In this document: positions 6,567 through 7,978 of the stretch, piece after piece
How the letters are laid out: every line of letters starts with the position of its first letter
How positions within the stretch are numbered: position 1 is the first letter of the stretch
NCBI GenBank assembly: GCA_011524525.1
Contig: WTKE01000025.1
Location: forward strand, 1-64,000
DNA: 64,000 nt
Direction of reading: 5' to 3'
Origin: Bacillus sp. (in: firmicutes)
Lineage (GTDB): Bacteria; Bacillota; Bacilli; Bacillales; Cytobacillaceae
Notes under the pieces: generated by a model
What the model was told of the DNA's origin: nothing
Database searches by the model: none
What the model saw: the letters and a program-made list of their open reading frames with translations, nothing else
Position numbers and translations under genes: made by a program

Positions 6567-7346
6567 CTACTCCTGTTGTTTTTCTTCTAGCTGTTCTTTC
6601 GCTCCATTAAGGTGAGATTTGATCTTTTCTAAAGCCATTTGTGCAGCATGCTGCTCAGCCTCTTTCTTTGATCTCCCCGTACCTTGTCCAAGCTCTTCGT
6701 TGTTTAAACACACCTTTGAGACAAACTCCCTATTATGGGCCGGTCCTCGCTCTAGTAAAATTTTGTATTCGATTGTACCAATTCCATCTCTTTGTACAAG
6801 CTCTTGCAGCTGACTTTTAAAATCCATCACATGAGAAAAAGCACCTTCGTTAATTTTAGGAAATACTACTCTTTCTAAAAATCCAATCACTGTTTCAATT
6901 CCTTTGTCCAAAAAGAGTGCACCAATAAATGCCTCAAACACATCCGCTAACAGGGCAGGACGCTCACGGCCTCCTGTCATTTCTTCCCCTTTTCCAAGAA
7001 GCACTAGTTTCCCAAAAGTAAGTTCATTTGCAAACCTTACTAGAGAGGGCTCACAAACAACGGCTGCACGCAGCTTTGTCAACTCTCCTTCACTCATCAT
7101 CGGGTATTTCTTGTAAAGGAATTGTGAAACAGTTAATTCTAAAACAGCGTCTCCTAAAAATTCAAGCCTTTCATTATCTTCATAGGGCTTTCTACGATGC
7201 TCATTCACATATGATGAATGGGTAAATGCTTGTTTTAATAGCTTCTCATCTGTAAAGGTAATTCCTTGTTCTGCTTGAAATTCTTTAAATAATTTATCGT
7301 AAGAGCGAAAGCTACGTTTCTCTCTTTCTTTTCCGTACTTGCTCAT
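6567..7346 (-). CDS. rnc: Ribonuclease III
   Basis: [14 protein letters not shown] RNase III motif plus C-terminal dsRBD. Confidence 0.98.
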
Positions 7347-7445
7347 TTTGCCTCCACCTTGCTAATAGTTTACATACCATATCAAGTTTACGTAAAAGTT
7401 CTTAAAAACGCAAAGGAAGATTGAAGGTTTTTTAATATTTATTAA

Positions 7446-7593
7446 GAAAAGCGGAAGTGCCCGTTTAGCAACGTATGGACTGGAGAGCTTCGACTGAGAT
7501 AAAGGAAACACGGAGAGCGTAAGCGATTCGATGTTGACTTATCGCAGGGAGAAGATCGAAGTACACTAGTTGCTGGGCGCTGGAGCTGGACAA
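7446..7593. repeat. ~148 bp structured intergenic repeat-like element
   Basis: Non-coding; nested complementary arms (agcgg..gcccg..agcaac / gttgctgggcgctggagct; cttcga / tcgaag; gataa / ttatc); resembles repeats I recall from Bacillaceae genomes. Confidence 0.6.
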
Positions 7594-7634
7594 TTTTCGA
7601 AGTGCAATTTTTATACTTTCTAAACATCATGAAG

Positions 7635-7662
7635 AAAGCCCCGCATTGCTGCGGAGCTTTTT
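7635..7662 (-). terminator. Intrinsic terminator downstream of acpP
   Basis: aaaGCTCCGCAGCAATGCGGGGCtttc hairpin on the - strand. Confidence 0.8.
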
Positions 7663-7677
7663 CATAACATCTAACGA

Positions 7678-7911
7678 TTATTGAGTACTTTTTATGTAAT
7701 TCACAGCGTCACCCACTGTAGAAATCTTTTCAGCATCATCGTCAGAGATTTCCATATCAAACTCGTCTTCTAATTCCATAACTAGTTCAACTACGTCAAG
7801 GGAATCAGCACCAAGATCATCCTTGAAAGAAGCTTCAAGAGTCACTTGATTTTCTTCTACTCCAAGTCTGTCAACGATAATCTTCGTTACGCGCTCTAAT
7901 ACATCTGCCAT
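7678..7911 (-). CDS. acpP: Acyl carrier protein
   Basis: [17 protein letters not shown]...[19 protein letters not shown]; start moved to the ATG after GGGGAGGTG. Confidence 0.98.
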
Positions 7912-7978
7912 GCGTTTCACCTCCCCTCAAGGGACATTATAGTGTATTTTCGACAATTAATAAATGTTGAATTTTCGG

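Follow-up and report, generated by a model that had tools for sequence, protein, structure and literature searches.

The acpP–rnc spacer

In the window, i.e. the whole 64,000-nucleotide stretch of Bacillus sp. DNA that was analysed, the spacer between rnc and the terminator of acpP is occupied by a single structured element (table 1). The initial annotation had described a repeat-like element of about 148 bp (7446–7593) built from nested complementary arms. The spacer is indeed a real element, with the sequence and the nested arms as annotated; of the extent, the start at G7446 stands, but the unit is larger and runs with a 3′ tail to about 7620, with TAA on both sides. The annotation had also dismissed a 62-aa minus-strand ORF across the element, which is most likely spurious because copies vary in length from 141 to 154 nt and their substitutions follow base pairs. 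Other copies located beside a convergent gene show the same arrangement as the one in the window, with their 3′ end facing a terminator.

Table 1. Features of the acpP–rnc spacer and its surroundings (window coordinates).
Feature	Position	Strand	Basis
rnc	6567–7346	−	
62-aa ORF spanning the element, probably spurious	7442–7630	−	length variation and base-pair-preserving changes
TAA at left flank, possible target duplication	7443–7445	+	by inspection; TAA or TA is duplicated at four other sites
Family-1 core (147 nt), which folds as a single long, imperfect hairpin	7446–7592	+	8 own-genome copies, 75-copy alignment, covariation
Terminal clamp, 5′ arm: AGC, GNA (here GGA), AGYGCC	7450–7461	+	common to second family
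Apical domain GATAAAGGAAACACGRAGAGCGNAAGCGATTCGATGTTGACTTATC, near-invariant, with GNAA tetraloop (7519–7522) and two tandem G-A internal loops	7498–7543	+	
Terminal clamp, 3′ arm: GGCGCT, GNA (here GGA), GCT	7576–7587	+	GNA/GNA internal loop with 5′ arm
3′ tail, type a ATTTTCGAAGTGCAATTTTTATACTTTC	7593–7620	+	conserved as type a in 79 copies; missing at unfilled sister-species sites
TAA at tail-end flank, possible target duplication	7621–7623	+	by inspection
acpP intrinsic terminator, facing the 3′ end of the element	about 7634–7663	−	sequence inspection
acpP	7678–7920	−	

Copies, families and distribution

The genome to which the window belongs carries eight full copies of this element (family 1), which share 89–95% identity and lie on both contig strands, and matches were obtained in 34 of the 61 genomes searched, its own included. 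The homologues that the annotation had mentioned from other Bacillaceae do exist: the core was matched in Neobacillus, Pontibacillus, Robertmurraya, Cytobacillus, Mesobacillus and others, and a pattern scan recovered 77 stretches in named genera, e.g. Neobacillus, Pontibacillus, Cytobacillus, Mesobacillus and Sutcliffiella. Of 300 genomes of the order, 88 gave covariance-model matches below 1e-20 (counted from the table); given how permissive this model is, hits with E values higher than about 1e-20 were set aside as probable chance matches. Phages and plasmids were rejected as carriers, with no match to the element in either set searched. Membership in an Rfam family was likewise rejected, since nothing matched at gathering score and the only hit, to BSnc120, was a chance hit far below threshold and beside the core. 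The element is not in Rfam, and no account of it was found in the literature searched; the family is real, widespread in the order of Bacillus and apparently unnamed.

A second family of about 116 nt has the same clamp and ends as family 1 but a different core (GCATAAG...CTTATG). It is present in about 19 copies in the same genome and shows covariation of its own (18 of 33 pairs, 17 copies). Still shorter forms of 39–61 nt retain little beyond the ends. Behind ribH in one genome (G004, locus L160), there is a remnant of about 38 nt with hardly anything besides the two arms of the clamp, and the genome of the window has a full copy at this site. Arrays are common, in which the families are mixed or repeated head to tail with spacers of 3–5 nt. 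One locus of the window's genome (L009 1100–1760; C52:147.1–148.2 kb) is a mosaic cluster of several such elements, among them hairpin cores of other kinds that carry TCATAAAC/TTATGACG arms.

A covarying hairpin on the plus strand

Folded as RNA, the plus strand of the window copy reaches a predicted −55.0 kcal/mol (z −5.7; none of 200 shuffles as stable) and the minus strand −37.3 kcal/mol (z −4.0). The RNAalifold structure derived from 75 distinct copies comprises 38 pairs, with pairing in 97.0% of alignment cells, compared with 89.6% in shuffled alignments and at most 45% in slid controls. The compensatory changes that the annotation had proposed to look for are plentiful, with double changes in 24 of the 38 pairs, which was matched in 0 of 500 shuffles. 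Its suggestion of a structured RNA is thus backed by covariation, and is supported together with mobility. Among non-Watson–Crick cells at paired positions, G-U (81) exceeds A-C (24; top strand), which points to the plus strand as the one that is folded; since the structure was itself derived on this strand, this excess is supportive rather than independent.

Within the clamp, AGC pairs flank a GNA/GNA internal loop, whose middle base varies between an invariable outer G and A. The base preceding the core is mostly opposed to the core's last base as G-A (56 copies), and elsewhere the two covary (C-G 9, T-A 4, A-T 2). The family-1 apical domain bears the GNAA loop and tandem G-A mismatches; at some loci (L070, L021, L022 and L036) this apical form is replaced by a UUCG loop, a U-run loop or fully Watson–Crick stems.

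Position behind stop codons and rRNA genes

Position relative to genes was counted for 187 distinct copies, with only the first copy of each array included. Ninety of these lie in sense behind a gene, 67 of them at most 8 nt from its stop codon (median 4). After removal of a few negative distances, which probably reflect mis-called ORF ends, and of copies lacking a right neighbour, the proportion within 8 nt is 63 of 84, i.e. about three quarters. The stops ahead of the elements are TAA (47), TAG (15) and TGA (2). For 79 convergent genes, by contrast, the distance between their stop and the 3′ end of the element has a median of 81 nt and is never 8 nt or less. In element-free intergenic regions only 8–23% of TAAA-type sites are at stop codons. 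The adjacency therefore exceeds what the target sequence by itself would produce; selection against other sites may account for it. Targeting of terminators as such was rejected, since hairpins on the right side are found chiefly at sites with the end of a convergent gene, and same-direction gene pairs have copies without such hairpins that are nevertheless stop-adjacent.

Protein-coding genes are not the only ones concerned. In one genome (G249; loci L308, L309 and L310), family-1 copies lie in sense in several rRNA operons, where they follow 16S after about 8 nt and 23S immediately; two copies there that are 3,244 bp apart were considered as a composite transposon, which was rejected because these are rRNA operons with copies behind both 16S and 23S. 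Left flanks at loci L026, L240, L272 and L192, such as GAGGACTTAACTAAAATG, resemble the 3′ end of 23S rRNA by eye, suggesting that independent insertions behind 23S may have occurred in other genera as well.

An obvious question is whether these are functional 3′-UTR elements, i.e. hairpins that alter ribosome release or mRNA 3′ stability or processing when placed behind a stop codon, and that are retained by selection. The one-sided adjacency to stop codons described above would fit such a role, and E. coli REPs are reported to downregulate translation when less than 16 nt separate them from a stop codon (PMC12306157). Four pairs of orthologous copies carry nine substitutions, and all four that fall at paired positions preserve pairing (chance about 0.4–2%); at three of the four pairs the elements are about 1.5% divergent, against 4–7% in their flanks, which is suggestive, though only suggestive, of constraint on the element after insertion. 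Yet the element is missing at most orthologous loci, the genes adjoining its copies are unrelated, and many copies, including the one in the window, are antisense or lie past terminators. Overall we regard a 3′-UTR function as a possible but doubtful explanation of the family. For the window copy, whose folded strand is antisense to both acpP and rnc, a role as 3′-UTR stabilizer of these genes, in line with the mRNA-stability element that the annotation had offered as a third possibility, is unlikely. This copy lies past the acpP terminator, where it is probably a passenger, and it probably does not regulate acpP or rnc specifically.

Tail, insertion sites and target duplications

Most single copies extend beyond the right arm by a 3′ tail of 25–55 nt. 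Among 129 single copies, 79 have a tail of type a and 19 of type b; the tails terminate in TTTATAMTTTCYTA, some 18 (type a) or 37 (type b) nt past the core. Type-b tails (L046, L059, L109 and L113; Pontibacillus, Neobacillus) often contain DnaA-box-like TTATCCACA or TTATACACA, followed by TTTTATAATTTCCTA.

Comparison of filled with unfilled orthologous sites in sister species delimits the insert, which includes the tail. At L273 an unfilled CAGTAAAAAAGCTG corresponds to a filled CAGTAA[element]TAAAAAAGCTG, with TAA duplicated; TAA is also duplicated at L234 and TA at L184 and L182, where the first G of the element converts a TAA stop into TAG. Seven sites of the window's genome also occur without the element in two to four sister species. 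At the acpP–rnc site of one genome (G001) the element is absent while the tail remains, and some unfilled sites, this one included, may be deletions that left the tail behind. Orientation of the insertion relative to A-runs is fixed. Empty sites together with copy number support the mobility of the element, which has inserted at many sites.

To this extent the non-autonomous, MITE-like element envisaged by the annotation holds up: the repeat is short, non-coding and dispersed in multiple copies, as bacterial MITEs are. It does not hold for the ends, as the core arms are inverted but the asymmetric tail lies outside the right arm, and the sequence next to the right junction is no mirror image of the left end. 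Short TA/TAA duplications were seen at a minority of sites. Target-site duplication, put forward in the annotation as a check, is clear at four sites but weak and statistically unconvincing in pooled copies, and its length is probably 2–3 nt, perhaps up to 5.

A TA duplication is typical of IS630 and a TNA duplication of IS5/IS1031, and the duplications at the four sites could thus betray a MITE moved by a DDE transposase of one of these kinds. The ends argue against such an element: they are asymmetric, with a palindromic core that is separated from the right junction by the 25–55 nt tail, and the clamp's middle triplet consistently lacks complementarity. Moreover, no long autonomous copy with these ends far apart was found in the genomes G000 and G002, although a parent may exist elsewhere. 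Movement by a DDE transposase is therefore an unlikely account.

Replication and candidate mobilizing enzymes

In the complete genome G002, with the origin taken at coordinate 0, 31 of 33 independent sites of both families are oriented against the replication fork, and copies bearing the right-end motif in its exact form are absent from the terminus-proximal third of the chromosome (1.62–3.27 Mb), compared with 10.8 expected. Hand counts gave the same orientation in G072 (10 of 11) and G115 (10 of 12; partly supplemented from the covariance-model table), but a weak or contrary one in G173 (12 of 17), G034 (7 of 11), G266 (9 of 15), G029 (3 of 8) and G204 (1 of 5). GC-skew proxies yield 43:12 for copies with a full tail motif, a ratio confounded by gene direction. 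An orientation bias, for which the annotation had proposed to look, therefore exists against replication in some genomes, but as a universal rule it was rejected, being weak or absent in several others.

Such orientation, together with a strand-specific imperfect hairpin and the supply of stop codons at the element end, is reminiscent of REPs mobilized by a RAYT, i.e. a Y1 HUH transposase, and GTAG REP ends may likewise supply TAG stop codons (PMC3733652). Y1_Tnp was matched in 76 of 88 element-rich genomes and in 146 of 212 others. This still leaves 12 element-rich genomes with no Y1_Tnp match, and the RAYT in the genome of the window has a distinct repeat of its own at its flanks. Furthermore, short target duplications are present and the GTAG/CGTC tag is lacking: the hairpin foot is not conserved, with left flanks reading TAAG, TAG, AAC, ACG etc. 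On account of the incomplete co-occurrence and the different repeat, mobilization by a RAYT was rejected, and we consider it quite improbable. The RAYT-like Y1 transposase gene in question (L147 1501–1836; C23:16899–17234) is located near GGTGTCTGTCACC palindromes, which constitute a different REP system.

Group IIC introns target terminators, and the targets at terminator T-tracts and the RNA-type fold with its G-U bias could recall an RNA mobilized by reverse transcription in a group II intron-like or retron-like manner, but with RVT_1 missing from 8 of 20 element-rich genomes a reverse transcriptase requirement was rejected and, with no intron or other Rfam match either, this route is highly improbable. 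Judged by presence and absence across genomes, neither a RAYT (Y1) nor a reverse transcriptase appears to be required, although a past dependence may hold. No mobilizing enzyme was found.

Discussion

Overall, we favour the view, with a probability of roughly two in three, that the window contains one copy of a non-autonomous mobile element of the REP/MITE-like kind, with a core of about 147 nt plus a tail, that is moved in trans. Its folded strand is best read as the conserved payload of the element. We infer that an enzyme acting in trans would recognize the folded clamp as a single strand, i.e. as single-stranded DNA at replication forks or as RNA, and would insert the element into TA–A-run sites. 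Such sites would outlast selection best directly behind stop codons and beside terminators, and copies in sense to the preceding gene would then be carried along as a large 3′-UTR hairpin. The initial annotation had included neither the tail nor the sister family that shares the ends, and it had noted neither the adjacency to stop codons nor the orientation that in some genomes runs against replication.

Among known repeats, REP/BIME elements (GTAG/CGTC-tagged and moved by RAYTs) are similar in being short, gene-less palindromes in many copies, with strand-specific imperfect hairpins, arrays and a location near stop codons. The element described here differs from these in its size (about 147 nt plus tail, versus 20–40 nt for a REP), its lack of the tag, its RNA-like fold, which is long, covaries and includes a GNAA loop and tandem G-A mismatches, its head-to-tail arrays and its presence in some hosts without a Y1 transposase. 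The bcr1–bcr18 repeats of the Bacillus cereus group (Okstad 2004 and Kristoffersen 2011, cited in PMC3446304) are, as summarized there, intergenic structured repeats of the same order that often lie in UTRs; bcr1, of about 150 bp and MITE-like, is described in that summary as specific to the B. cereus group. MRSC-65-2, a mobile or repeat candidate from structured-RNA surveys (PMC11109978), resembles our element in that one long stem covaries strongly, each genome has dozens of copies and orientation is inconsistent, but its conserved motif is UYCCGG, and the portion of the survey devoted to it mentions no clamp common to families with different cores. Bhal-1 and Bhal-2 of B. halodurans (Petrillo 2008, PMC2267715) are stem-loop repeat families of 74–76 bp from a related genus, and are possibly fragments of the second family.

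A bolder and rather unlikely generalization is that both families belong to a superfamily of mobile elements recognized as single strands, in which a fixed clamp (AGC-GNA-AGYGCC with GGCGCU-GNA-GCU) holds exchangeable cores, and insertion or retention is tied to functional gene 3′ ends, namely to stop codons and, in certain genomes, to the precise 3′ terminus of 23S rRNA. If this were true, the mobilizing enzyme would have to respond to translation termination, to transcription ends or to replication forks.

For annotators, these elements are a warning against spurious ORFs and against claims of gene-specific riboregulators at such copies. They are common in a large order with industrial and environmental species. 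Demonstrable insertion, an RNA-type covarying fold and placement behind stop codons are rarely found together, and this family could thus offer one system for two old questions, i.e. how gene-less palindromic repeats move and whether a hairpin at the stop codon affects translation or mRNA decay in Gram-positive bacteria.
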